A stretch of 64,000 nucleotides of DNA, from NCBI GenBank assembly GCA_013297775.1, contig JAAFIL010000019.1, forward strand, positions 1 through 64,000, written 5' to 3'. Below are positions 7,572 to 20,076 of this stretch, one piece after another. The notes under the pieces are model-generated. The model worked only from the letters and a program-made list of their open reading frames with translations, searched no databases and was not told where the DNA came from. Positions within the stretch are counted from its first letter, which is position 1; every line of letters begins with the position of its first letter. The DNA is from Bacteroidota bacterium. Its GTDB lineage: Bacteria; Bacteroidota; Bacteroidia; B-17B0; Aurantibacillaceae. Made by a program: the position numbers and the translations under genes.

Positions 7572-8264
7572 TTACAAACCTGCAAAAAATGCACGCATCT
7601 CGTCCTTACTTATAATTTTCATATAAGCCGGAATTTCAAATGTGTTATCAGGAATTTGTTGATGCTTAACCGCTTTAGCTAAAAAGTGCATTTCTAAACC
7701 CATTTTTTTTAGCCGATAATCGAGCAAAACCCCTTTTACTGCAAAATAGGGTGTTAGCGCATTGCAATCCTCAGGTAAATTCAAATCTTTGGTATAATAC
7801 GCATCAAATTTAATTTCGGGCGAGTCCACACGGTTTACTTTTAGTTTATAACAGGTGTAGCCCGCTATAACTTTGGTTTCTTTGGTTTCTTCAATGTGTA
7901 ATAAATACGATTCGTTTTCGGCTTTTATATCGCTTTCCGTTTCAATGCAGGCTTGTTTAATTTCCATAAACTTAACCGTTTGCGCAATTTCTTTTGCTTT
8001 TAAATCGCCAATAATGGAGGTATTAAATAAACCCATGGTACTCATTTCGAGTGCGAATTTATTTTTTTTATACTTTAAAACGACCGAACTTGGAGCTAAT
8101 CCTGCCAAAGGGTGTTTAGAGTCAATGGCTTTCGTTTCGTATTCAATAAACCCTTCCTGCGCCTCCTTATCTATGGCATTAGACGTTTGGTTTTGACAGC
8201 TAAACGCAAATAAACTGGCGGCTAAACCTAAAAAAATAACGACTATTGGAGATTTGAATTTCAA
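7572..8264 (-). CDS. DUF4412-like lipoprotein
   Basis: 230 residues. The N-terminus MKFKSPIVVIFLGLAASLFA runs into FSC23, a plausible though non-ideal lipobox. The middle contains TKVIAGYTCYKLKVNRVDS and further on FDAYYTKDLNLPEDCN, matching the pattern of the neighbouring 6758-7450 protein (TKTILGYECKKVLVTV), which indicates paralogy; the C-terminal segment KIISKDEMRAFFAGL parallels KVLSFSELKEQLKAM in that protein. It is likely a periplasm-facing, membrane-anchored protein of unknown function. The two genes are 121 bases apart with a promoter between them, so they are not strictly co-transcribed. Confidence 0.8.
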   Translation of the reverse strand: MKFKSPIVVIFLGLAASLFAFSCQNQTSNAIDKEAQEGFIEYETKAIDSKHPLAGLAPSSVVLKYKKNKFALEMSTMGLFNTSIIGDLKAKEIAQTVKFMEIKQACIETESDIKAENESYLLHIEETKETKVIAGYTCYKLKVNRVDSPEIKFDAYYTKDLNLPEDCNALTPYFAVKGVLLDYRLKKMGLEMHFLAKAVKHQQIPDNTFEIPAYMKIISKDEMRAFFAGL

Positions 8265-8324
8265 AATATATAATCGAAAGTAATAAAAAATTGAATACTA
8301 CTTTCAATTCTCATAAAAAAGAAA

Positions 8325-8696
8325 TTATTTTAAGGTAACAGTTTTGTCAACGCCTTTACCTTCTTCTAGTTTGATGATGCCAGTTGCTACTAAAGTAGTT
8401 GAATTTTCTACTTTGGTGGCACGTATATCGTAAATAGCAGGAAGTTTAAATGTAAACGAAACCTGACCCGAGGCATCAGTAACTCCTTCGGCCTTTAAAT
8501 CGGCAGTTACGGTATTGCTTTGCGATGTTTTAACAGTAGCAAAAAGCAACACGGGAATATTGGCAGCACTTGCACCAGAGGCATCTACTACAGTAACGTT
8601 GGCTTTACAATCTGTTTTTTTATCGCAAGAACTAACCGTTAAAGCCCCTAAAGCACAGCAACTAAAAAATAATACCCCACAGATACGTGATTTCAT
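8325..8696 (-). CDS. Small lipoprotein with an Ig/transthyretin-like domain
   Basis: With the start at 8696 the protein is 123 residues and begins MKSRICGVLFFSCCALGALT followed by a good lipobox (V-S-S-C24). A 35-residue longer reading exists but overlaps the divergent gene at 8742 and has no signal-like start. The mature part is one beta-sandwich of about 95 residues: CKANVTVVDASGA, then GVTDASGQVSFTFKLPAIYDI, the usual pattern of carboxypeptidase-regulatory or Ig-like beta modules that carry peptide-modifying or adhesive proteins. No enzyme domain is attached. It is the first gene of a leftward set and is divergent from the cyclophilin gene. Confidence 0.75.
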   Translation of the reverse strand: MKSRICGVLFFSCCALGALTVSSCDKKTDCKANVTVVDASGASAANIPVLLFATVKTSQSNTVTADLKAEGVTDASGQVSFTFKLPAIYDIRATKVENSTTLVATGIIKLEEGKGVDKTVTLK

Positions 8697-8741
8697 AACA
8701 AAAAAACTTATTTGATTAACAAATATAATTAATTTTAGCGA

Positions 8742-9563
8742 ATGTACAAAAAACTTGCTGTAATTGTGTTTTGCGCTTGGTTCTTCTGTTCCAACGGTCA
8801 AACCTTATCGAAAGAAACCATTATTATTGAAACCGACTTTGGTAAATTAAAAGTAAAACTTTACGAAGAAACCCCTCTGCATAAAGCTAATTTTTTAAAA
8901 CTGGTGCGCGAAAAATTTTACGATAGTTTATTGTTTCACCGCATCATTAACGGATTTATGATTCAAGGGGGCGACCCTGCCAGTAAACGCGCTAACGACA
9001 CTGCCCAATTAGGCGATGGCGATGTGGCCTACCGCCTACCCGCCGAAATAAACCCTGCGTTAATTCACAAAAAAGGGGCTTTGGCAGCGGCGCGCGACGG
9101 CGATGATGTAAACCCTAACTTCGAATCGAGTGGTTGTCAATTTTACATCGTGCAAGGTAAAGTGCGCACTAAAGAAGACCTACAAAAGTACGAAGCGCGC
9201 ATTAATAAAACACGCTATACCAATTGCGCCAATGCCTATTTAAAAAGTGCAGAGGGACAAACTCAAAAGCAACTTTACAACCGACTTAAACAAGAAACAA
9301 AAACCGATAGTGCCGAAGTGGTTAATAAACAAATCGAATTAGCCATTAAAAAACAATACGACCTAAAACCCGAGTACACTTTTACGTCCTATCAAACCGA
9401 TAGGTATATGAATGTTGGTGGTACGCCTCATTTAGATGGCACTTATACTGTTTTTGGAGAAGTTGTAGAAGGACTATTGGTGTTAGATAAACTAGCCGCT
9501 GTTAAAACAAACACTAACGACAGACCTTTAACAAATATCCGCATGAGAATTTATGTAAAGTAA
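8742..9563 (+). CDS. Exported cyclophilin-type peptidyl-prolyl isomerase
   Basis: 273 residues; MYKKLAVIVFCAWFFCSNGQ is a signal peptide, so the enzyme should act on folding proteins in the periplasm. The cyclophilin fold starts with IETDFGKLKVKLYEE; LLFHRIINGFMIQGGDPASK (about residues 65-84) is the family signature, including the catalytic Arg in FHR and the Gln-Gly-Gly-Asp loop. Later FESSGCQFYIVQGK matches the conserved SQFFI region. An insertion of about 80 residues rich in Lys, Tyr and Gln (about 142-220) separates this from the last strands (YTVFGEVVEGLLVLDKL); this extended form is usual in Bacteroidota. It is divergent from the lipoprotein gene at 8325-8696. Confidence 0.93.
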   Translation: MYKKLAVIVFCAWFFCSNGQTLSKETIIIETDFGKLKVKLYEETPLHKANFLKLVREKFYDSLLFHRIINGFMIQGGDPASKRANDTAQLGDGDVAYRLPAEINPALIHKKGALAAARDGDDVNPNFESSGCQFYIVQGKVRTKEDLQKYEARINKTRYTNCANAYLKSAEGQTQKQLYNRLKQETKTDSAEVVNKQIELAIKKQYDLKPEYTFTSYQTDRYMNVGGTPHLDGTYTVFGEVVEGLLVLDKLAAVKTNTNDRPLTNIRMRIYVK

Positions 9564-9573
9564 ATAAAAATAG

Positions 9574-9581
9574 TATTTTTG
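9574..9581 (+). promoter_or_regulatory. Candidate -7 box for the outer-membrane barrel gene
   Basis: TATTTTTG fits TAnnTTTG exactly, 50 bases before the ATG at 9632. Only a weak TTA is found in the -33 position. Confidence 0.45.
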
Positions 9582-9631
9582 TTTTCTAAACTTATTAAAA
9601 ATTAGTCTTCAAAATTAGCAACAACAAAATT

Positions 9632-10291
9632 ATGAAAACAAACAGCTTAAAAGTAGCAGCCATTGTAGCGAGTATATTTACATCCTCGCTTTTTGCACAA
9701 AACATCGAAGCCAGTATGATTACCAAGGCTAACAGTGAAGAAGATTTAATTGAAAAAGGTTCAAACTTTGTTAACCTGTATTATGGAGTTAATATCTTAA
9801 CCTCAATTTATAAGGCGGTTGCCTCTGCCGATGCCATCGATATTAAAGTAAGAGGTATTGGGCCTGTTGGTTTAGTTTATGAACATTTAGTAACCGATAA
9901 AATTGGTATTGGTGGTGAGTTTAGTTATTCATCCACAAGGGTAACCTATCGCGAGGAGGCATTCACATCAATTGGAGGAGTCACGCCTACATACGACTAC
10001 ACTTGGGAATTTTCAACCATTCGCGCCATGTTCAGAGCCAATTTTCATTTTGCAGATGCCGAAAAATTTGATGCTTATGGTTTAATAAGTGCTGGTTACC
10101 GAAGAAATGACTATTCGTTCACCTCCAACGATCCATTTGGGACAGTAAATGTTAAAATCCCTAATTTCATTCCGTTTGGTATTAAACCAGGTATTGGTTT
10201 CCGTTATTTCTTTACGCCAAACATTGGTCTTAACGCCGAAATTGCAGCAGGCACACCCCTGATATGTGGGGGTTTAAGTTTTAAATTCTAA
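9632..10291 (+). CDS. Outer-membrane beta-barrel protein
   Basis: 219 residues starting MKTNSLKVAAIVASIFTSSLFAQ, a signal peptide cleaved after FAQ. The mature sequence alternates hydrophobic and polar residues in strands (VGLVYEHLVTDKIGIGGEFSYS, then ISAGYRR, then FGIKPGIGFRYFFTPNIGLN) and ends with CGGLSFKF, with a terminal Phe, as expected for a small outer-membrane barrel (OmpW or porin-like class). The role is unknown. It is separated from the cyclophilin gene by 68 bases with a -7 box, so it can be transcribed alone, and it borders a long repeat island on its right. Confidence 0.8.
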   Translation: MKTNSLKVAAIVASIFTSSLFAQNIEASMITKANSEEDLIEKGSNFVNLYYGVNILTSIYKAVASADAIDIKVRGIGPVGLVYEHLVTDKIGIGGEFSYSSTRVTYREEAFTSIGGVTPTYDYTWEFSTIRAMFRANFHFADAEKFDAYGLISAGYRRNDYSFTSNDPFGTVNVKIPNFIPFGIKPGIGFRYFFTPNIGLNAEIAAGTPLICGGLSFKF

Positions 10292-10318
10292 TACCAAGTT
10301 TATTTATCTATTATTTTT

Positions 10319-10541
10319 TGGGCGTGCCCCCTTATCTGTTTAGAATGTTCGCCTTCGCCAATAGCCAGTGAAGTAGGTAAAAGATTAGTTCTAAAATTGA
10401 GATCGGGGTCGGGCTATCGGCTTTAGCCAATGCAGCTTTGGCGGCTTTTGTTGCGGCTGCGGGGTCTTCGTGCCTCAGCCGCCTCGCTCGCACAAAAGCA
10501 CGCCAAACCCTGCATTGGGCTGTCGCCTCTATCCCTCACGT
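10319..10541 (-). repeat. Structured dispersed repeat family B, copy 1
   Basis: Read on the (-) strand, it begins GTGAGGGATAGAGGCGACAG and ends GGGGGCACGCCCAA. It shares the end sequences, the central GCGAGG..GGCTGAGGCACGAAGACCCCGC block and the stem layout with copies at 30102-30345 and 42461-42682. Confidence 0.8.
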
Positions 10542-10606
10542 AAAAAGAGTGAAACTCTAATTGGAAGAAGACTTTACTTTAGATTAAGAATGATTAATTG
10601 CCCTGT

Positions 10607-10740
10607 CTCGTCCTTGTTTAGCGAAGCGTAACGAGGACGTTTTAGAACTGCGTTTGTAACGCAGATAAAGCTATCGTGTGGGCGTTACAAACGCCCGTTT
10701 AGCCCGTCCTCGTTTCCGCTAACGCTCAAACAAGGACGAG
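10607..10740. repeat. 134-bp palindromic repeat (family A), copy 2
   Basis: Same 134-bp length and same nested stems as 6355-6488: outer CTCGTCCTTG / CAAGGACGAG and inner GCGTTTGTAACGC / GCGTTACAAACGC. Most differences from copy 1 fall in the apical spacer. Confidence 0.85.
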
Positions 10741-10862
10741 GGAGATGTTGCTTTACATTTTACAGCTTTTGAGGTGGCTAAAACACACCATACATTTAAT
10801 AAGCCTCTTTTATACTGAGGACAAGTTCGCAAAACAACTAGCCATTGCATCTTTAACCCTAA

Positions 10863-10955
10863 ATTTCAAGAAATCGGACACTTTAGAATAAAATAGCTAA
10901 CTCTGTAAAACACTTAAAATCAAAACTTAAAAAATGAGTTAGATGGAAATAGACC
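10863..10955 (+). repeat. Dispersed repeat family C, copy 2
   Basis: ATTTCAAGAAATCGGACA, TTTAGAATAAAATAGCTAAC, TCTGTAAAACACTTAAAATC and AAATGAGTTAGATGGAAATA match copies at 6211-6300 and 30363-30460. Confidence 0.75.
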
Positions 10956-10976
10956 GTTCAAAAAAAGAACCGCCTA

Positions 10977-11044
10977 CGATTAAGTAAAGTAAGGATTCCA
11001 GTATAAATCACTTGTAAGAAATCCTCACAGTAACTTAATCGTAG
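10977..11044. repeat. Stem-loop with about 20-bp imperfect arms
   Basis: ACGATTAAGTAAAGTAAGG on the left and a CCTCACAGTAACTTAATCGT arm on the right are imperfect reverse complements around a 25-base loop. It lies directly after family C copy 2, as element D and palindrome A lie after copy 1. A second local hairpin (CCTGTCCCGAA.. / ..GACAGG) follows at about 11046-11088. Confidence 0.55.
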
Positions 11045-11215
11045 CCTGTCCCGAATTCACTTCGGGCATTAACCGCACTAAGACAGGTAGTGCGCCAAAA
11101 AAATGGCTTCTGCTGTCTAATTGCGGTTTAATTTCATCGCCATTCTTGTCCTTTAAGTAACTTTCAAAGGAATAGGTTAGGGCTTCTCTCACGTAAAAGA
11201 GTTCATTTTAACCGT

Positions 11216-11381
11216 AAATAGACAGTTGAAATCTATTACAAAACAAAATCTGCGGCAGCTATTAAAAAGGCTCGGCTCTCCGGTCTTCAAAATAGCGTTA
11301 GCTATTCTTACAGTCCTCGAACCTGTGCTTCCTAATATCCTTGCAGCTTTTGTCTTTCACTACGATTTCAACCGTCTATTT
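11216..11381. repeat. Inverted-repeat-bounded element (family D), copy 2
   Basis: The left arm AAATAGACAGTTGAAATC and right arm GATTTCAACCGTCTATTT are near-perfect reverse complements. The element also contains the local palindrome AATAGCGTTAGCTATT. The GAAATCTATTAC border is shared with the element at 6515-6673. Confidence 0.7.
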
Positions 11382-11619
11382 TCAGTTTAAACCATTTGTG
11401 AGATTACTGCAAGCTAAAAGCCTTTCTGAACAAGAGCTTCGGGGAGTTCTATCCTTTATCAAAATTGTGGCAAGCCAGTAAAATCGTTTTTCATAGCTTA
11501 AAAAAATCTTTAAATTCCAGTAGAAATCCCTTGCAGCGGCCTCTTTGTATATACCAATGAAAATAACGACTTTTTATTCCACTCTTTTTTAAAACATCAA
11601 CGACCATTCATTCCTCTCT

Positions 11620-11852
11620 GCCTTTGCGAACTTTGCGTCCTTTGCGTGCCATTCAAACCCCAATAACCAATCCATCTTTCCTTTCCGCCTTTGCGAACTT
11701 TGCGCCTTTAGCGTGCCATTCAAACCCCAATAACCAATCCATCTTTCCTTTCCGCCTTTGCGAACTTTGCGTCCTTTGCGTGCCATTCAAACCCCAATAA
11801 CCAATCCATCTTTCCTTTCCGCCTTTGCGAACTTTGCGTCCTTTAGCGTGCC
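11620..11852. repeat. 67-bp tandem repeat, about 3.5 copies
   Basis: GCCTTTGCGAACTTTGCG recurs at 11620, 11687, 11754 and 11821, an exact 67-base period. Units contain CTTTGCGTGCCATTCAAACC and CCAATAACCAATCCATC. The only variation seen is GTCCTTTGCG versus GCCTTTAGCG-type changes. The reverse complement carries the GGCACGCAAAGG..GCAAAGTTCGCAAAGG motif dispersed elsewhere in the window. Confidence 0.92.
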
Positions 11853-11925
11853 AAAACTATTTTACACACAAAACCTCCAATCCTTTATATCGTTTAACCC
11901 AAAGCCTTTCCCGAAAAAATTAAAT

Positions 11926-13671
11926 TTAAACCTCTAAAGGCAATTGCTTACTCACTAAAAACGGACCCATTACCAAATAATCTAAATCCGAATTTACAAA
12001 AGAATGTATGGCATCTTGAGGCGAACACACAATAGGCTCACTTTTAATATTAAACGAAGTATTTAAAATAACAGGATGACCCGTTAAAGCTTTAAATGCC
12101 GTTAATAAACGTCGGGTGTGTTTATTCTCTTCCTCATTCACCGTTTGAATGCGCACCGTTCCATCTACATGTGTAATGGCTGGCATCAGCTGTTGGTACT
12201 CTTCCTTAACCCCGTAAACCAATAGCATATACGGATTGGGTAAATGAAAAGTAAAATAAGTACTACATTCTTCTTCACTAACAATAGCTGCAAATGGTCG
12301 AAAGCCTTCTCGAAATTTAATTCGCCGATTGATAGTATCTTTCATGTTGGCAGGAAACGGACTCGCAAAAATACTGCGGTTTCCCAAGGCACGCGGACCA
12401 TATTCCATAGCCCCTTGAAACCATCCAATAATATATTCTTGTTGCAGAATGCGCGCCGTCAAATCATAAATACCCTCGCCCACTAATTTATAATTGACCT
12501 TAGCCGCTTTTAATGCCGCCTCGTAATCGCTGTCGCTGTAAGCATGTCCTAAAAAAGCAGTTTTCATCACGTATTGGCGTGGTCGGTTCAATTGCTCGTG
12601 AGCCAGTAAAAACGCACTTCCTAAAGAGGTTCCAGAATCGCCCGCTGCTGGTTGAATAAAAATATGTTTGAATAATCCAGATTGAATCAACTTGCCATTA
12701 GCAACACTATTTAACGCCACACCGCCCGCCAAACAAATGGCATCGGCTCCTGTTGCTTTTTTTAAATACGCTCCAAAATGTAAAAACAATTCTTCAACAA
12801 TGCGTTGCGCACTCGCCGCTACATCTTTTTCTTTCTGATTCCAATTGCCCGCCTCCGTTTTAGAAGGCCCAAATAAACTATTAAATTTTTTGCTGACCCC
12901 ACTTTTTCGCGAATAGTGGTAACTAAAATACGACATGTCAAAGCTATACTTGCCCTCTGCTTCAAACTGAAATAAACTGCGCATGTCCTTATACACTTGG
13001 CCATTGGCGTTTCCAAACGATGCCAAAGCCATTAATTTACCAGGTCCCTCAATAAGTTTAAAGCCAAGGTGCATCGAAATGGCTTGATAAAACGCACCTA
13101 AAGAATAAGGCGTATCTACCGTTCCTAATTTGGCTAAACGATTACCTTTGCCATGCGCAAATAGAGTGGTAGCCCATTCGCCCGCTCCATCAACGGTTAA
13201 AATAGCCGCCTCATAAAATCCCGATGGATAGAAAGCACTTGCCGCATGGCACAAATGATGCTCTTGATAATGAAACTGAAACTTGGCTCGCGCACCGCCT
13301 TCAAAAGTATTCCGAATGCGCTTTGGCAAACGATACATATCTTTTAAATAATTCAACATCCCTAAATTTTCTTCTACTTTAAAGTGCCGTTGCTCTTTTA
13401 AAAGTTTGGGCACCTTATCAAAAAATTTAAAAAAGTAATGAGGAATATGACGAATGGTTAAACCAGGTTTCCAAAAAAAAGTGATGTGATCCACATCGGC
13501 AATCGTAATATTCGCAAAGTCTAAACAAGCTTGTATAGATTTAACCGGGAATTGACCGTCGTGTTTTTTACGAGTTAACCGCTCTTCTTCAATTGCAAAA
13601 ACTAAAACTTCATTAATAATAATCGAAGCCGAAGAATCGTGTCCAAATGCGTTAATACCAATAATAATCAT
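11926..13671 (-). CDS. Carbamoyltransferase of the NodU/CmcH family
   Basis: 581 residues, usual length for the family. These cytoplasmic enzymes transfer a carbamoyl group from carbamoyl phosphate (through carbamoyl-AMP) to a hydroxyl of a sugar or antibiotic. The N-terminal Kae1/ASKHA-like domain starts MIIIGINAFGHDSSASI, with EEERLTRKKHDGQFP (family signature) and HHLCHAASAF (about residue 140; metal-binding histidines) followed by LTVDGAGEWAT. The C-terminal domain has FQGAMEYGPRALGNRSI and REGFRPFAAIV, which are typical. It is the last gene of a (-) operon with a glycosyltransferase, a DUF2304 protein and a TPR membrane protein. The natural substrate is therefore probably a surface sugar or glycolipid; that is an inference from context. 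Confidence 0.93.
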   Translation of the reverse strand: MIIIGINAFGHDSSASIIINEVLVFAIEEERLTRKKHDGQFPVKSIQACLDFANITIADVDHITFFWKPGLTIRHIPHYFFKFFDKVPKLLKEQRHFKVEENLGMLNYLKDMYRLPKRIRNTFEGGARAKFQFHYQEHHLCHAASAFYPSGFYEAAILTVDGAGEWATTLFAHGKGNRLAKLGTVDTPYSLGAFYQAISMHLGFKLIEGPGKLMALASFGNANGQVYKDMRSLFQFEAEGKYSFDMSYFSYHYSRKSGVSKKFNSLFGPSKTEAGNWNQKEKDVAASAQRIVEELFLHFGAYLKKATGADAICLAGGVALNSVANGKLIQSGLFKHIFIQPAAGDSGTSLGSAFLLAHEQLNRPRQYVMKTAFLGHAYSDSDYEAALKAAKVNYKLVGEGIYDLTARILQQEYIIGWFQGAMEYGPRALGNRSIFASPFPANMKDTINRRIKFREGFRPFAAIVSEEECSTYFTFHLPNPYMLLVYGVKEEYQQLMPAITHVDGTVRIQTVNEEENKHTRRLLTAFKALTGHPVILNTSFNIKSEPIVCSPQDAIHSFVNSDLDYLVMGPFLVSKQLPLEV

Positions 13672-13675
13672 ACCT

Positions 13676-15634
13676 CTATTTTCCTTTACTAGTTAAAGCT
13701 AAATTCAAATTGCCTTTTAATAATTCGTTAGTCGGGTCTATGCGTAAGCCTTTCTGCCCCGCTTCTATAGCCTTATCCCATTGCTTTAATTGATTGTATG
13801 CCGAACACATATTGTTATAAGCTAACGCATAATCGGGTTTCAATCGAAGCGATTGCTGGCAGGCTTCTATGCAAGCCTCGAACTGACCCACATTGTAATA
13901 CGCCAAACTTAACTCTATATAATTTTCGGGACTCACATTCGCTTTGGCATTTTTAATAGCCGCTTCCAATTTAATGGTATTAATATCCTCTGGGTGATTA
14001 GCATTTAATTCTACCTCGGGTTTTAATACAGCCAATCCAGCGTGTGCAGGGCTTAATAGCAAGCCATCGTTAACCGTTTTTAAAGCCTCGCCATAACGTT
14101 TATTTTTTAGTAGATGCTTTGCATAATACACATACCATTCGGGATTTTGCGAGTCTAAACTTTTCGCTTTTAAAAAATCAACTTCGGCCTCTGCGGGGCG
14201 GTTGGTAGCCGATTTGAGAATACCTGTATTAATGTATAAATACGAATAATCGGGCCATTGCAAACTAGCTTGTGTAAACGCCGCTTCGGCTTCAGCAAAA
14301 GCAGCACGCTGCATTAACGCATTGCCATAATTCATCCAGTTACGCCCATTGCGAGGCGATTTAAGCGTGGCTTCTTTCCACACCGATTCACCACTACTCC
14401 AAATTTTATTTTGTTGATACGTGCCATATCCATGCAAGGCAATACACACTGGCAAGGCAACACTATAAAATTTAGTTAACGAAAACCGATTGGCGTAAGT
14501 TTGATGCAACCAAATAAACCCATACACCAATGCGATGCTTAAGCCTATGTAAGCAAAAAATGGACGATGATCGTTTAACACCTCCGACAAAGGAATGATG
14601 CTAGATGTAGGTGCTAACGCCAACAAAAACCAAGCCAAGCCAAAAGCTAATAAAGGATGCTGTTGCGAACTCCGATAAATAATGTAGCCCAAGCCTATTA
14701 AAAAACCCATGCCTATTAAAAACCTATCGTCGGTAATCGTTTTTAAAAATTCCCAATCGGTATCTATCACTAAATTAAATGGAAGAAAAAAATTATTGAA
14801 GTAATGAATAATCACAAAAGGTTGACTAATTAAATACGACCAACGATCGGTGTTGCCCGAGTCCCAAGTTTTGGGAGTCATCCGTTGCGAAAACAAAAAC
14901 AAAAAAATAATTACTGCCAAAGGCCATACATTACGTTTTAAAACCACCACTACATTAGAAAAGTGAAACGGATGCTTGTCAATAGCCTTGCGTTCCTCAA
15001 ACAACAATTGATACACCATTAACAACGGCACAAACATAATGGCTGGCTCTTTTACACTAAAGCCTATTACCAAAGGAATTAAATATAAAAAATACCTGCG
15101 CCAATATCCCGACTTTAAATACATCAAAAAACTAATCAATACCATTAATGTCGAAAACGAATCGGCGCGCGCAATAATGTAATTAATGGTTTGACTATTG
15201 GCGGTGTGTACACAAAAAAAAGTACTTAAAAACAAAGCCCATAAAAAATTGGAAACGGCATTGGTACAAGGCTTCAATAACTGCTTGGCAAAACAAAATA
15301 AGCAATACCCCAATAGAAGTAAACAACAAAAAATAGAGAGGTGATAATAAAACGGATTGGGCAACGCTTGGCCACCAATGGCATAATCAATTGTATTAAG
15401 CGTGGTTAAGCCTGGGCGGTAAGCCTGATTTTTAGGTAAGGAGCTAGTTGTTGTTGCATCTACAAAAAACTGAGGAATATTTTTTAGCGAGCGGATGGCT
15501 GCGTTGCTAACTATCGTGTGTTCATCATCAAACTCAAATGGGTTGTAAAAATGATTGCTATAAACCAATACCACAACCAACACGGCTAAAAAAGCAAACA
15601 TACTTTTTTTAATAGGAGAGAGCGAGTTAATCAT
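13676..15634 (-). CDS. Polytopic membrane protein with C-terminal TPR repeats (TMTC/PMT-like)
   Basis: 652 residues. An N-terminal membrane domain of about 10-11 hydrophobic helices (residues 12-400) begins SMFAFLAVLVVVLVYS and has an early acidic loop FEFDDEHTIVSN, consistent with the Asp/Glu-containing first loop of GT-C glycosyltransferases. The C-terminal 250 residues are at least five TPR units (SPRNGRNWMNYGNALMQRAA, PDYALAYNNMCSAYNQLKQW). This layout resembles TMTC-type O-mannosyltransferases. It lies 4 bases from the carbamoyltransferase start and 20 from the DUF2304 gene, so these are co-transcribed. A glycan or protein glycosylation role is likely, but the exact reaction cannot be read from the sequence. 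Confidence 0.8.
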   Translation of the reverse strand: MINSLSPIKKSMFAFLAVLVVVLVYSNHFYNPFEFDDEHTIVSNAAIRSLKNIPQFFVDATTTSSLPKNQAYRPGLTTLNTIDYAIGGQALPNPFYYHLSIFCCLLLLGYCLFCFAKQLLKPCTNAVSNFLWALFLSTFFCVHTANSQTINYIIARADSFSTLMVLISFLMYLKSGYWRRYFLYLIPLVIGFSVKEPAIMFVPLLMVYQLLFEERKAIDKHPFHFSNVVVVLKRNVWPLAVIIFLFLFSQRMTPKTWDSGNTDRWSYLISQPFVIIHYFNNFFLPFNLVIDTDWEFLKTITDDRFLIGMGFLIGLGYIIYRSSQQHPLLAFGLAWFLLALAPTSSIIPLSEVLNDHRPFFAYIGLSIALVYGFIWLHQTYANRFSLTKFYSVALPVCIALHGYGTYQQNKIWSSGESVWKEATLKSPRNGRNWMNYGNALMQRAAFAEAEAAFTQASLQWPDYSYLYINTGILKSATNRPAEAEVDFLKAKSLDSQNPEWYVYYAKHLLKNKRYGEALKTVNDGLLLSPAHAGLAVLKPEVELNANHPEDINTIKLEAAIKNAKANVSPENYIELSLAYYNVGQFEACIEACQQSLRLKPDYALAYNNMCSAYNQLKQWDKAIEAGQKGLRIDPTNELLKGNLNLALTSKGK

Positions 15635-15654
15635 AAAATTATAAATAAGTCCAT

Positions 15655-16017
15655 TTATTCTTCTTTTGTTTTTTCATTCAACTGTTCATTCAAACGTTCG
15701 TTTAACAAAGCAACCTCTTGTGTTAAGTTTTTGATTTGACCCCGTTGACGTGAAAGCAGTACACTCAAATGTAAACAGTAAACTATAATTAGTAAAAATA
15801 AAACAATATATAAAACAGAAGGTGGGTAATACACCCCAAAAAAATCGGCCATCACTTCGATGCCGCTGCGCCAAAAAGCAATCACATTTAAAAACACCGC
15901 ACTCAACACCCAAATAATGCTGAACTCTTCGCGCAATTGTTTTTTAGCCACTAACTTAAACACTATAAATAAAAAAATAAGTGTAGTACCAATGCTAATG
16001 TATTGAATAAACGACAT
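15655..16017 (-). CDS. DUF2304 family membrane protein
   Basis: 120 residues with three hydrophobic segments (about 5-20, 35-50, 66-88) and a C-terminal coiled-coil-like tail rich in Leu, Asn, Glu and Lys. The layout and the sequence EEFSIIWVLSAVFL followed by a Trp-Arg-Ser-Gly stretch match DUF2304, a small membrane family usually encoded beside polyprenyl-phosphate glycosyltransferases, which it may help anchor or regulate. It is placed 2 bases after the glycosyltransferase gene in the same operon, as expected for this pairing. Confidence 0.8.
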   Translation of the reverse strand: MSFIQYISIGTTLIFLFIVFKLVAKKQLREEFSIIWVLSAVFLNVIAFWRSGIEVMADFFGVYYPPSVLYIVLFLLIIVYCLHLSVLLSRQRGQIKNLTQEVALLNERLNEQLNEKTKEE

Positions 16018-16019
16018 GG

Positions 16020-16745
16020 CTAGGCTTTTTTATTGAATAAAAAATTTAACTTAATAAATAAAATGGCGAGGCTCACTTTAATCATATAATACAACGATGA
16101 AAACCCAGAGATAGAAGACTCCCCCCCTTCTCTATCGCGCATAAAAACAGGTATTTCGGTAATACTCAATCCCTTTAGCCGACCATATACAATCACTTCT
16201 GGCTCGGGATATTTATCAGGATAATACTCAGCAAAAAGGGTAATGGCCTTTCGGTTAAACAAGCGATAACCCGAAGTAGAATCATAAACCTTTTGCCCTG
16301 TACACGCCCAAATTAATCCATTTAAAATACGAATACCAAAACGGCGCATGGCGGTAGATTGAAACCCTTCCCATTTTAAATACCGCGATCCTAAACAGAT
16401 ATCGCATCCTGTTTTTAAAGCCGCTTCTAATAATTTTGGCACTTCCGAGGGCGGGTGTTGCCCATCTCCATCCATTTGTAAGGCATAATCGAATTGATAA
16501 CGCTGGGCGTATTTAATGCCACTTTGCACCGCCCCGCCAATGCCTAAATTATTTGGTAAATTCAAATAATGGGGGGCATGTTTTTGAAGGCAAGCTAAAG
16601 TGCCATCGGTAGATAAATCATTAATTGGTAAAATAGTAAACTGTGCGTTGCCCCATTGAAGTGGTTTTAATTCGTTTAATAGCGGCACAATATTTTGTGC
16701 TTCGTTATAACACGGAATGATTATTAAAACTTTCAAATGTTCCAC
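16020..16745 (-). CDS. Family 2 glycosyltransferase (dolichyl/polyprenyl-phosphate mannosyltransferase type)
   Basis: 241 residues with a GT-A fold: IIIPCYNEAQNIVPLL at the N-terminus (nucleotide binding), NDLSTDGT, then MDGDGQHPPSEV (the metal-binding DxD region, about residues 92-103) and YDSTSGYRLFNRKAI, closest to DPM1/polyprenyl-phosphate sugar transferases. Such enzymes load a sugar from NDP- or GDP-sugar onto a lipid phosphate at the inner membrane. A hydrophobic C-terminal helix (about 215-235) could attach it to the membrane. It is the first gene of the four-gene operon ending with the carbamoyltransferase. Confidence 0.92.
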   Translation of the reverse strand: MEHLKVLIIIPCYNEAQNIVPLLNELKPLQWGNAQFTILPINDLSTDGTLACLQKHAPHYLNLPNNLGIGGAVQSGIKYAQRYQFDYALQMDGDGQHPPSEVPKLLEAALKTGCDICLGSRYLKWEGFQSTAMRRFGIRILNGLIWACTGQKVYDSTSGYRLFNRKAITLFAEYYPDKYPEPEVIVYGRLKGLSITEIPVFMRDREGGESSISGFSSLYYMIKVSLAILFIKLNFLFNKKA

Positions 16746-16814
16746 AGTTTTCGTTAAATAGGCACACCAAAATACAAATAAAATTTAGGTGTGCCAACTA
16801 GAATAAGTGGTTAA

Positions 16815-16933
16815 TACCAATTATCATTATACTACGTTAAAACTGTTTTAGTATAACTGTACACCAGCAACGTCTCCTAAAAATTGATGCCTGCCTTGTT
16901 ATAACCCAAACCATTTTATAAATGATATTGGTA
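16815..16933. repeat. MITE-like inverted-repeat element (family E), copy 1
   Basis: Bounded by TACCAATTATCATT and AATGATATTGGTA, which are reverse complements apart from one base of indel, and flanked by A/T at both ends. It occupies most of the 199-bp gap between the glycosyltransferase and methyltransferase genes. No coding capacity. Confidence 0.7.
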
Positions 16934-16944
16934 TCTTTTGCGGT

Positions 16945-17580
16945 TTATAATTGATGTGTATAAATCACCGCTTCCTTGTAACGCTTGGTATATAACGTTT
17001 CTTTAAGTTGAAACCCCATTTCTTGAAAACATATTTCAAAGCGTGGGTTCATATATACAAATACACAAGGCTTGCTTGCGTTGGCTTTAATGCGATGCAA
17101 TAAGGGTCTTAATACATCATCCGAAAAAGGATTAAATAAAAAATAAATACAAGGGGCATCGGGTATTTCTAATTGCAAAGCATTTTGCTCCACAAACTGG
17201 AACTGAGCCTTGGCATTTTGCCGAACATAATTTTGTAGGTTGAGCCTTGCTACTTCAATTAATGCAGCATCCAAATCAATTCCTTTTAAATCGGTAAACC
17301 CAAAGCGTTCGGCCACAAACAACACACGTCCTTTCCCGCATCCAATATCGTAAACCATATAATTGGGGTATTGGCGATAAAGTTTTTGAAACAACTGTTC
17401 CACCGCCAAATACGAAGCCCCTTGGTAATGATAGTTGCCATTGTTTTTACTAGTATTTACCACCGCTTGGGTGTTAATACCATAACGTTTATCGCCTTTC
17501 CATTCGTACCGAAGTAGGTTAAGTGTATTCAACAATCCACGGTAACACACCGAGCGTATAAAATAATAAAGGTATCGCAT
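16945..17580 (-). CDS. Class I SAM-dependent methyltransferase
   Basis: 211 residues from the start MRYLYYFIRSVC (17580). The SAM-binding motif I is MVYDIGCGKGRVLFVAERFG and motif II is GIDLDAALIEVARLN, typical of class I Rossmann methyltransferases; the sequence resembles the uncharacterised small-molecule group rather than any RNA family. A reading 13 residues longer exists (17619), but a good promoter (TTTG, 17 bases, TAAATTTG, 17592-17620) lies inside it, which favours the shorter start and a very short leader. It is divergent from rel. The substrate is unknown; its closeness to the glycan operon is suggestive only. Confidence 0.82.
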   Translation of the reverse strand: MRYLYYFIRSVCYRGLLNTLNLLRYEWKGDKRYGINTQAVVNTSKNNGNYHYQGASYLAVEQLFQKLYRQYPNYMVYDIGCGKGRVLFVAERFGFTDLKGIDLDAALIEVARLNLQNYVRQNAKAQFQFVEQNALQLEIPDAPCIYFLFNPFSDDVLRPLLHRIKANASKPCVFVYMNPRFEICFQEMGFQLKETLYTKRYKEAVIYTHQL

Positions 17581-17591
17581 TTTAGAGTTGA

Positions 17592-17620
17592 CAAATTTAC
17601 GGAAATTATCTACCTTCAAA
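17592..17620 (-). promoter_or_regulatory. Promoter of the methyltransferase gene, overlapping the rel promoter region
   Basis: On the (-) strand TTTG (17617-17620), 17 bases and TAAATTTG (17592-17599) match the Bacteroidota promoter consensus. The expected start of transcription is only a few bases before the ATG at 17580. On the (+) strand TTG (17588-17590), 20 bases and TACCTTCA (17611-17618) form a weaker candidate for rel, so the two would overlap. Confidence 0.6.
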
Positions 17621-17647
17621 TCTGAGAATGTGGGAGTCCTCCGATTT

Positions 17648-19855
17648 ATGATTATTGATTTAGAAGCCGAACGTAAAGAAATATTAAACCGCTACAAGCT
17701 ATTAATAAAAGCCTGCAAACGACGTTTAGAAAAAGGCGATAAAGAAATGATTCGCAAAGCGTTTGAAGTAGCAGTAGAGGCTCATAAAGAAATGCGTCGC
17801 AAAAGTGGCGAGCCTTATATTTACCACCCTATTGCCGTGGCTCAAATTTGTGCCGAAGAAATTGGACTGGGTGCCATTGGCATTGTTTGCGCCTTGTTAC
17901 ACGATACCGTTGAAGATACCGATTTAACACTCGAAGATGTAAAGGGTTTATTTGGTGCTAAGGTTTCGCAAATTATTGATGGCCTCACCAAAATTTCGGG
18001 CGTAATAGATAATACCAACAGTTCGATACAAGCCGAAAATTTTCGGAAGGTGTTGCTCACCATGAGTGAAGATATTCGGGTGATTTTAATTAAGATGGCC
18101 GATCGTCTTCACAACATGCGCACACTCGAACACATGAAACGCGATAAGCAAATGAAAATTGCCAGCGAAACATTATTCTTGTATGCCCCGCTGGCACACC
18201 GTTTGGGACTTAACGCTATTAAAACTGAACTCGAAGATTTAGGTTTAAAATATACCGATAACGAATCGTATGACGACATTGCACTTAAACTCAAAGAAAG
18301 CGAACCCGAACGTAAAAAATTTATCTTAAAATTTATTGAACCCTTAAAAGAAATATTAACCGAGCAAGGGTTTAAATTTAAAATTTATGGGCGACCCAAA
18401 TCCATCTACAGCATTTACAACAAAATAAAAACCAAATACGTTCCATTTGAAGAAATCTATGATTTATTTGCCATTCGCATCATCATCGAAACGCCCTTCG
18501 AACAAGAAAAAAGCGATTGCTGGAAAATATATTCCATCATTACCGATTTTTATCACCCCAGTCCCGAACGCCTGCGCGATTGGATAAGCACCCCCAAAAG
18601 CAATGGTTACGAAAGTTTACACACTACTGTAATGGGTCCCGAAGGCAAGTGGGTAGAGGTACAAATACGCAGTTTACGCATGGATGATTTAGCCGAAAAT
18701 GGCTATGCTGCCCATTGGAAATATAAAGATGCTGCCGCCGAAAAAGAAAGTAAACTCGAAGCGTGGTTACATCGCATTCGCGATATGTTAGAAAACCCCG
18801 ATCAAAATGCGCTAGAATTTATTGACGATTTTAAACTCAATTTATTTAGCGACGAAATTTTTGTATTTACCCCCAAAGGCGATATGAAAACCTTGCCTAC
18901 CAATGCAACGGCTTTAGACTTTGCGTTCGACATTCATACCAAAGTGGGCGAGCAATGTATTGGTGCCAAGGTCAATCATAAATTAGTACCACTCAGCCAT
19001 AAATTAAAAAGTGGCGATCAGGTCGAAATTTTAACCTCGGGTAAACAAACCCCTAAAGACGATTGGTTAAACTATGTGATTACCGCACGCGCCAAATCGA
19101 AAATTAAAAACTCTTTAAAAGAACAGCGTAAAAAAATTGCCGAAGAAGGCCGCGAATTATTAGAGCGTAAATTTTATAAATGCAAACTCGATTTCACACT
19201 TCAAAATGTGAATGAATTTTGCACCTACTTAAAACTACCTTCTTCGCAAGAGTTGTTTTACAGAGCCGCTTTAGGCAATGTAGATGTGAAAGAAGTGAGA
19301 GCCTTTGTTAAATACAAAGAAAACCCTACCGTACACAAGGCTGGCAAAAAACCCGATGCGCCAAAGTTAGAACAACTGGTAACCAGTGCGCGTGGCGGTG
19401 GCGATATGTTGGTGATTGGCGACGATATGCAAAAACTCGACTACAAATTATCGCCATGTTGCAACCCCATTCCAGGCGATGATGTGTTTGGATTTGTTAC
19501 CATTAGCGAGGGCATCAAAATACATCGGGTTAACTGCCCCAATGCTATTAAACTACTAAGCAATTATGCCTACCGTGTGGTAAAAGCTAAATGGACTAAC
19601 GACCAACTCATCTCCTTTTTGGCTGGCATTAAAATACACGGCACCGACGAGTTGGGCATCGTTAACAACATCACAAAAGTTATTTCTAACGAAAATAACA
19701 TTAACATGCGCGCCATCAGTTTCGATACCGACGATGGAATTTTTGAAGGAAACATTATGGTATATGTACACGACACCAAACACCTTAGCCATTTAATTGA
19801 TAAACTTAAACTAGTAAAGGGCGTAACCAGCGTTATTCGGGTAGATGAGAAATAG
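17648..19855 (+). CDS. rel: Bifunctional (p)ppGpp synthetase/hydrolase, RelA/SpoT family
   Basis: 735 residues from MIIDLEAERKEIL (17648), a normal length for a long Rel. It makes and degrades the stringent-response alarmone (p)ppGpp in the cytoplasm. Domains in order: HD hydrolase with HDTVEDTDLT (about 84-93), KMADRLHNMRTL and intact histidines; synthetase with GYESLHTTV (about 320); TGS with TLPTNATALDFAFDIHTKVG; a zinc-finger/RIS domain with CCNPIPGDDVFGFVTI; and a C-terminal ACT domain. Both catalytic domains look intact, so it should be bifunctional, as usual for the single long Rel of Bacteroidota. A 20-residue longer frame was rejected because it lies in the promoter region. Confidence 0.95.
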   Translation: MIIDLEAERKEILNRYKLLIKACKRRLEKGDKEMIRKAFEVAVEAHKEMRRKSGEPYIYHPIAVAQICAEEIGLGAIGIVCALLHDTVEDTDLTLEDVKGLFGAKVSQIIDGLTKISGVIDNTNSSIQAENFRKVLLTMSEDIRVILIKMADRLHNMRTLEHMKRDKQMKIASETLFLYAPLAHRLGLNAIKTELEDLGLKYTDNESYDDIALKLKESEPERKKFILKFIEPLKEILTEQGFKFKIYGRPKSIYSIYNKIKTKYVPFEEIYDLFAIRIIIETPFEQEKSDCWKIYSIITDFYHPSPERLRDWISTPKSNGYESLHTTVMGPEGKWVEVQIRSLRMDDLAENGYAAHWKYKDAAAEKESKLEAWLHRIRDMLENPDQNALEFIDDFKLNLFSDEIFVFTPKGDMKTLPTNATALDFAFDIHTKVGEQCIGAKVNHKLVPLSHKLKSGDQVEILTSGKQTPKDDWLNYVITARAKSKIKNSLKEQRKKIAEEGRELLERKFYKCKLDFTLQNVNEFCTYLKLPSSQELFYRAALGNVDVKEVRAFVKYKENPTVHKAGKKPDAPKLEQLVTSARGGGDMLVIGDDMQKLDYKLSPCCNPIPGDDVFGFVTISEGIKIHRVNCPNAIKLLSNYAYRVVKAKWTNDQLISFLAGIKIHGTDELGIVNNITKVISNENNINMRAISFDTDDGIFEGNIMVYVHDTKHLSHLIDKLKLVKGVTSVIRVDEK

Positions 19856-19916
19856 TACAAACTATTTTCTTTAACCTAAATTCCTATCGCATAAACCAAG
19901 TTTAAAATAGCCTTGA

Positions 19917-20076
19917 TACCAATATCGGTTCTAAAAGATACAAGTTGAACCAGAATTATTTTTCTTTTAGGCGACGAAAAAATTACAGGCGTAGCAAGGC
20001 CTACGGGTATAATTTTTGAGGAAGTATAAGAGAAAAAGAAACTGGGTCAACGTATCTTTTAGAAATGATGTTGGTA
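19917..20076. repeat. MITE-like inverted-repeat element (family E), copy 2
   Basis: A 160-bp near full-length hairpin. The left TACCAATATCGGTTC, the AAAAGATACAAGTTGAACC region and the right GGTCAACGTATCTTTTAGAA, ATGATGTTGGTA region are imperfect reverse complements, with inner arms GGCGTAG / CCTACGG. A deleted 50-bp relative is at 35055-35104. Confidence 0.8.

Follow-up and report, generated by a model that had tools for sequence, protein, structure and literature searches.

The question raised by this locus is what a polyprenyl-phosphate sugar synthase, a small DUF2304 membrane protein, a membrane protein with TPRs and an O-carbamoyltransferase, encoded by adjoining genes in a Bacteroidota genome, might be doing together, and to which acceptor. 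The stretch of DNA that was analysed, hereafter the window, is 64,000 nt long. The four genes had originally been predicted to be same-strand neighbors 2-20 bases apart, and the open reading frames, the Pfam domains and the gaps of 4, 20 and 2 bp (from the carbamoyltransferase to the GT2 gene, by coordinate) agree with this (Table 1).

Table 1. Positions of the cassette genes and of adjacent features in the window.
Feature	Position	Strand	Details
GT2, DPM1/ArnC/GtrB-like polyprenyl-phosphate sugar synthase (cassette gene 1)	16020-16745	-	241 aa, GTG start
DUF2304 small membrane protein, GacJ-like GT2 partner	15655-16017	-	120 aa; DUF2304 82.1 bits
TMTC-like GT-C glycosyltransferase	13676-15634	-	652 aa; membrane 1-424, TPR ~427-651
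O-carbamoyltransferase (last cassette gene)	11926-13671	-	581 aa; Carbam_trans_N + Carbam_trans_C
Methyltransferase, next same-strand gene	16945-17619	-	
Stretch beyond the cassette end without an ORF of >=80 aa (ATG/GTG/TTG start)	10292-11925		1.6 kb
67-bp tandem array within that stretch	11611-11853		3.6 copies

The neighboring methyltransferase was considered as a fifth cassette gene and rejected. A gap of 199 bp separates it from the cassette, a polysaccharide lyase gene intervenes between it and the GT2 gene in genome G027, and it is spread more widely, being present in 25 of 40 genomes of the genus, in which the carbamoyltransferase clade was seen in three (the window's genome, G014 and G027). 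The methyltransferase adjoins relA in each of these three, which are the genomes with both positions. An Rfam search over window positions 8000-20000 returned no matches.

The first two genes resemble a known type of donor synthase. The GT2 matches Glycos_transf_2 with 86.4 bits, and its best PDB relative is the dolichol-phosphate mannose synthase 5mlz (E 1.8e-16), followed by ArnC and sll0501. The DUF2304 gene directly follows it, as in the GacI/GacJ type, in which, according to a passage of PMC8327497, a GT2 and its DUF2304 partner make a lipid-linked sugar.

The third protein had been called GT-C-like as a guess, since borne out by structure prediction. Above the Pfam cut-off it matches TPR families only, with PMT_2 sub-threshold at E 0.0023. 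The full-length AlphaFold model (43-row alignment) has a pLDDT of 92.3, and residues 1-424 folded alone reach 91.8. While the Foldseek list for the full-length protein was filled by TPR proteins, residues 1-424 gave ArnT as the best match (1.5e-4), then Pmt4 (7.5e-4). Among the 50 entries listed by VIA-align for the same residues, 43 titles are GT-C enzymes or complexes, the others being three translocon and four GPI transamidase assemblies; Z is 19.0 for STT3 (333 residues, 5.0 A), 18.0 for Pmt, 17.7 for ArnT and 17.0 for ALG12. The predicted fold thus supports the membrane half being a GT-C glycosyltransferase. Nine positions (D36, D37, R73, P74, R156, K195, D293, P342 and R357) are invariant in 43/43 rows, of which D36 and D37 provide the acidic residues of the first outer loop that are typical of the GT-C superfamily, the side of the loop being predicted. 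At L076, L094 and L100, the transferase occurs in two tandem copies.

The order of a GT-C domain and then C-terminal TPRs is the architecture of the TMTC proteins, whose full-length prokaryotic homologues have already been noted in PMC7801869. Placing the motifs tabulated in that source by eye, by order and spacing and without alignment to TMTC sequences, M1, M3 and M5 are kept over the 43 rows and M2, M4, M6 and M7 are kept in part. DD is present in 43/43; from SHKSYRP (M2), only YRP is retained (40-43/43), the S, H and K being lost. RxD keeps R in 43/43 and D in 40/43, and DW keeps D in 43/43 and W in 37/43. The KE motif has K in 43/43 and E in 34/43, with the M4 threonines lost, while PxxP (M6) has kept one proline and lost the other. 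In M7, the arginine before TM10 is found in 43/43, but H replaces E and F replaces Y. Furthermore, at E up to 10 the protein has 17 Pfam matches, none of them to TMTC_DUF1736 (PF08409), for which reason it was rejected as a TMTC proper; the protein is TMTC-like in build, without the TMTC Pfam domain. The matches to that domain in the window's genome lie elsewhere and below the cut-off. One such protein, also with TPRs (L165, contig 36, 132-1895; 21-25 bits), was not retrieved by a membrane-domain profile with a threshold of E 0.001.

The fourth protein matches both Carbam_trans_N (225.8 bits) and Carbam_trans_C (226.1 bits) at full length. It is not a NodU proper, scoring 167.1 bits against a cut-off of 1000 with the NCBIfam model, and it forms its own clade, whose members are 58-87% identical. 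Its closest solved relatives are NovN, TobZ and GdmN, at ~1e-80 and, by profile, at 1e-98 to 1e-110. H138, H142, D161 and D345, invariant in 8/8 orthologues, align with H114, H118, D137 and D338, which we take to be the metal-site residues of TobZ; this match depends on a shift of 6 that we infer in the chain numbering. Enzymes of the NodU/CmcH type use ATP and carbamoyl phosphate, and no signal sequence is apparent by eye. Carbamoylation is therefore likely to precede membrane crossing, and not to follow it as the original prediction held. That prediction could also name no carbamoylated surface glycan described in such a setting; the Pseudomonas LPS core, with its putative WapO, provides a precedent for a carbamoylated surface glycan (PMC8005017).

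Whether the last two genes belong together was examined in a class sample of 395 genomes, with thresholds of E up to 1e-140 for the carbamoyltransferase clade and up to 1e-60 for the transferase; up to three candidates were scored per genome, which makes the counts lower bounds. The clade is present in at least 15 genomes and the transferase in at least 72, and 15/15 clade genomes are among the 72 (hypergeometric 2e-12, relatedness ignored). The two genes are adjacent on the same strand, transferase first, in 11/15; they lie apart in G113, G148 and G153, and in G221 the locus is cut by a contig end. Around the separate copies, the carbamoyltransferase adjoins an MBOAT gene in G113 and a GldN-domain protein in G153 and sits among secreted proteins in G148, while the G221 copy (L171, contig 347) is found at the contig end, next to an SDR and another protein that resembles PMT_2 weakly. 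At 29 control loci (~1.5 kb flanks), the transferase adjoins 6/7 orthologous and 0/22 paralogous carbamoyltransferases. Two of the 22 paralogues (L010 and L016) have distant GT-C/TPR homologues next door, and the pairing could have more than one origin.

A scan of named genomes found 345 relatives, of which the best 80 were kept as 79 loci, a set that leans towards the window's kind. The gene after the transferase encodes a carbamoyltransferase in 22/79, a methyltransferase family in 12/79 (4 same strand, 8 convergent) and a same-strand SDR family in 9; 4 loci meet a contig edge and 32 have other genes. Wherever a carbamoyltransferase occurs in the flanks (22/79), it is the very next gene. The identities of the two proteins correlate over 23 loci (r 0.73, with none of 2000 permutations as high and shared ancestry kept in). 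Conversely, 57 of the 72 transferase genomes are without the carbamoyltransferase clade, so the cap appears to be optional. A search of the open-licence PMC literature found no paper in which a carbamoyltransferase is linked to a transferase of this kind or to O-glycosylation in Bacteroidota.

The position behind the transferase is a tailoring slot. This is illustrated by L085 and L086, which are one syntenic site in two genomes, with five flanking genes 83-92% identical and a sixth 67% identical: behind the transferase stands a methyltransferase in L085 and a carbamoyltransferase in L086. The two transferases are 76% identical and thus more diverged than the flanks, which suggests that transferase and tailoring gene may have been exchanged together. 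In a quick tree, the four methyltransferase rows group with L086 on a single branch that has full support.

These results bear on an alternative in which the carbamoyltransferase acts directly on the acceptor or on a different surface sugar, and simply travels with the transfer genes. The three genomes in which the pair is split, together with the assignment of putative WapO-type enzymes to the LPS core (PMC8005017), lend this some credit. Nevertheless, adjacency in 11/15 clade genomes, the invariable next-gene position at 22/79 loci and the methyltransferase swap make it a possible but rather unlikely explanation. The original view of sugar-lipid synthase, DUF2304 protein, GT-C enzyme and carbamoyltransferase as a single unit is supported, and the unit also occurs outside this strain. 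Gene order in relatives, which the original prediction had proposed as a check, is conserved in part: the transferase-carbamoyltransferase pair recurs widely, but the complete order, with GT2 and DUF2304 contiguous, is confined to the window and L081-L084, GT2-DUF2304 being often convergent nearby elsewhere.

The distribution of the cassette further suggests that it is mobile. Among the named carriers, the nearest is a MAG of Sediminibacterium (L081), and the MAGs L083 and L084 bear the names Fluviicola and Flavobacterium; the transferase is also carried by two genomes titled as strains and not as MAGs, Lacihabitans sp. CS3-21 (L103), with a carbamoyltransferase, and Filimonas zeae CGMCC 1.15290 (L133), with a collagen-like ORF nearby and no carbamoyltransferase within the flanks. 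RelA, retrieved as a reference for 17 of the 22 carbamoyltransferase loci and two others, was present in 19/19. Identities to the window for RelA and the carbamoyltransferase, respectively, are 93% and 87% in L081, 84% and 77% in L082, 57% and 78% in L083, and 53% and 77% in L084; they are 76% and 58% in L134, 74% and 60-61% in L143, 72% and 59% in L119, and 72% and 58-60% in L112. Carbamoyltransferases 77-78% identical where RelA is only 53-57% identical (L083, L084) argue that the four-gene cassette moves horizontally. In the 80-row tree of this analysis, the label needs 7 changes against a shuffled mean of 19.9, implying a clustered distribution with several gains or losses. The cassette lies near relA in the window and in G027 and on another contig in G014, and PLSDB contains no plasmid that encodes the transferase.

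In L083 and L084, RelA is on contigs other than that of the cassette, which could also indicate mis-binning. However, the proteins encoded beside the cassette there are themselves remote from those of the window's genome (flavoprotein 57/54%, SDR 42/41% and M28 peptidase 50/47% identity, for L083/L084). Horizontal transfer is therefore preferred on the basis of these sequences, though not proved. A flank protein of L083 has no match in the window's genome, which is uninformative.

What the transferred sugar might be attached to is suggested by the genes upstream. In four relatives (L082, L083, L084 and L112), a triad encoding a small protein, a collagen-like protein and an M28 peptidase stands directly upstream of the transfer genes, on the same strand as the cassette in the first three; in L112 (the G296 locus), it directly precedes a transferase-carbamoyltransferase pair. 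The collagen-like proteins of L082, L083 and L084 match Pfam Collagen with 72.6-88.5 bits, and the small protein has a secretion-tail domain in both cases tested (L082, L083). A second module, x132-FAD-SDR, consists of a small protein without a Pfam match, a GMC-like flavoprotein and an epimerase-like SDR. It is convergent behind the cassette in L083 and L084, and in L082 its x132-FAD part is divergent ahead of the triad, where the locus ends.

No collagen-like ORF is found within the 64,000 nt of the window. On contig 82 of the same genome (G000; L164, 114-6715), however, SDR-FAD-x132 and the triad lie side by side in divergent orientation, an arrangement also found on contig 3 of G027. The collagen-like ORF of L164 (3667-5604) has an unbroken run of 49 Gly-X-Y triplets, with Ser or Thr occurring in 27 of these. 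Over a stretch of ~430-460 residues it is 88, 66, 63 and 57% identical to L082, L083, L084 and L112. The three carriers found in the window's genus all possess both halves, which adjoin in one genome and are separate in the other two.

Collagen-like proteins also co-occur with the transferase across the class. Pfam Collagen (E up to 1e-8) is found in 128/395 genomes, comprising 63/72 with the transferase and 65/323 without it (p 3e-27, relatedness ignored). A laxer search (E up to 0.001) recovered five of the nine misses, among them the window's genome, giving 68/72; it also detected collagen in 5/18 previously negative controls lacking the transferase, three of them over the cut-off. Four transferase genomes (G159, G186, G263 and G364), one of them 99% complete, have none at E up to 0.001. 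By genus, a count that favors those heavily sampled, collagen is present in 28/28 with the transferase and 65/197 without. A collagen-like ORF lies in the flanks of 9/79 loci (L082, L083, L084, L096, L098, L103, L112, L133 and L149) and of 0/45 control loci, although the control (0.18 Mb vs 1.02 Mb) is too small to test a rate. In L098 and L133, a collagen-like protein with a DUF7151 domain is divergent from the transferase, as is a secretion-tail protein in L098.

Since the triad directly precedes the transfer genes in relatives, the exported collagen-like protein is the likely target. The original prediction had left the acceptor as a protein or a lipid; gene context and co-occurrence point to the former, probably in the shape of this protein. 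The same transfer system might instead act on a polysaccharide or LPS, as do GacI/GacJ with the streptococcal rhamnan, GtrABC and ArnC/ArnT, with the collagen gene being a passenger of the mobile island. ArnT does top the Foldseek list, and the one DUF2304 paper found (PMC8327497) concerns a cell-wall polysaccharide. Yet the TPR domain on the catalytic chain, the excess of collagen in transferase genomes and the triad adjoining the cassette make a polysaccharide or LPS acceptor unlikely. A small secreted metabolite of the TobZ, GdmN or NovN type, made beside unrelated neighbors, is highly improbable, for although the best solved relatives are antibiotic carbamoyltransferases, enzymes of lipid-sugar metabolism neighbor this one in many lineages.

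Taken together, we judge the chances to be even that the cassette is mobile and serves to glycosylate exported collagen-like proteins with a lipid-linked carbamoylated sugar. The observations behind this are the gene content, the GT-C fold and its active-site residues, the gene coupling, the horizontal spread, the methyltransferase swap, the island shared with the collagen gene and the co-occurrence with collagen-like proteins; we infer every reaction, as well as which sugar is used, how the enzyme is oriented and which residues accept the sugar. Anchored to the inner membrane by DUF2304, the GT2 would load a sugar onto polyprenyl phosphate at the cytosolic face, and the carbamoyltransferase would cap a hydroxyl of this sugar in the cytosol, in its nucleotide or its lipid-linked form. 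A further step would flip the capped lipid-linked sugar across the membrane. The GT-C enzyme, whose DD loop and TPR domain are predicted to lie in the periplasm, would then transfer it to the passing collagen-like protein, most likely onto Thr or Ser of the Gly-X-Y repeats. The sugar may be remodeled by the x132-FAD-SDR module, whose genes accompany the collagen gene. A broader proposal, which we offer tentatively, is that Bacteroidota own a dedicated, mobile form of collagen glycosylation in which a TMTC-like enzyme adds a single capped sugar, the slot gene sets the cap (carbamoyl, methyl or perhaps one made by an SDR) and the flavoenzyme-SDR pair remodels the lipid-linked sugar.

The bacterial TMTC-like class thereby gains a candidate donor synthase, tailoring enzyme and substrate together, which renders its function testable. 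If the proposal is correct, capped sugars on collagen-like surface fibers would form a surface trait that is mobile and can be swapped; any part in building a matrix or in defence against phages or predators is speculation. BclA, the collagen-like protein of the Bacillus exosporium, carries O-glycans on Thr of its Gly-X-Y repeats. BclA comes from another phylum and uses other machinery. General O-glycosylation, by contrast, operates in the same phylum, and its OTase, ligase and core flippase were called undiscovered in 2025 in a passage of PMC12871550, the main text of which does not contain 'carbam'. The cassette transferase was rejected as this OTase, since its presence in only at least 72/395 class genomes is too sparse for a general Bacteroidota enzyme.

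Parallels are also found for the individual parts. In GacI/GacJ and EpaI/EpaJ of streptococci and enterococci, which make lipid-linked GlcNAc, the DUF2304 gene likewise lies directly downstream of the GT2 gene and a membrane protein moves the lipid-linked sugar onward (PMC8327497); the cassette differs in its TPR-bearing transferase, the tailoring enzyme as fourth gene, the probable collagen-like acceptor and its Bacteroidota host. ArnC/ArnT and GtrABC similarly supply a membrane transferase from a polyprenyl-phosphate sugar synthase, whereas the cassette has in addition TPRs, the DUF2304 partner and the carbamoyltransferase. The latter shares both Pfam domains with NodU, TobZ, GdmN and WapO, but belongs to a separate clade that is tied to a GT-C gene, and scores only 167 bits as NodU. 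Finally, the animal O-mannosyltransferases TMTC1-4 have in common with the 652-aa protein a GT-C domain with C-terminal TPRs and the DD, YRP, RxD, K, DW and pre-TM10 arginine elements (PMC7801869), and differ from it in possessing TMTC_DUF1736 and the SHK of M2, the M4 threonines, the second M6 proline and the E and Y of M7. If the acceptor is as proposed, a dedicated collagen system in Bacteroidota would parallel the glycosylation of collagen and cadherin in animals.
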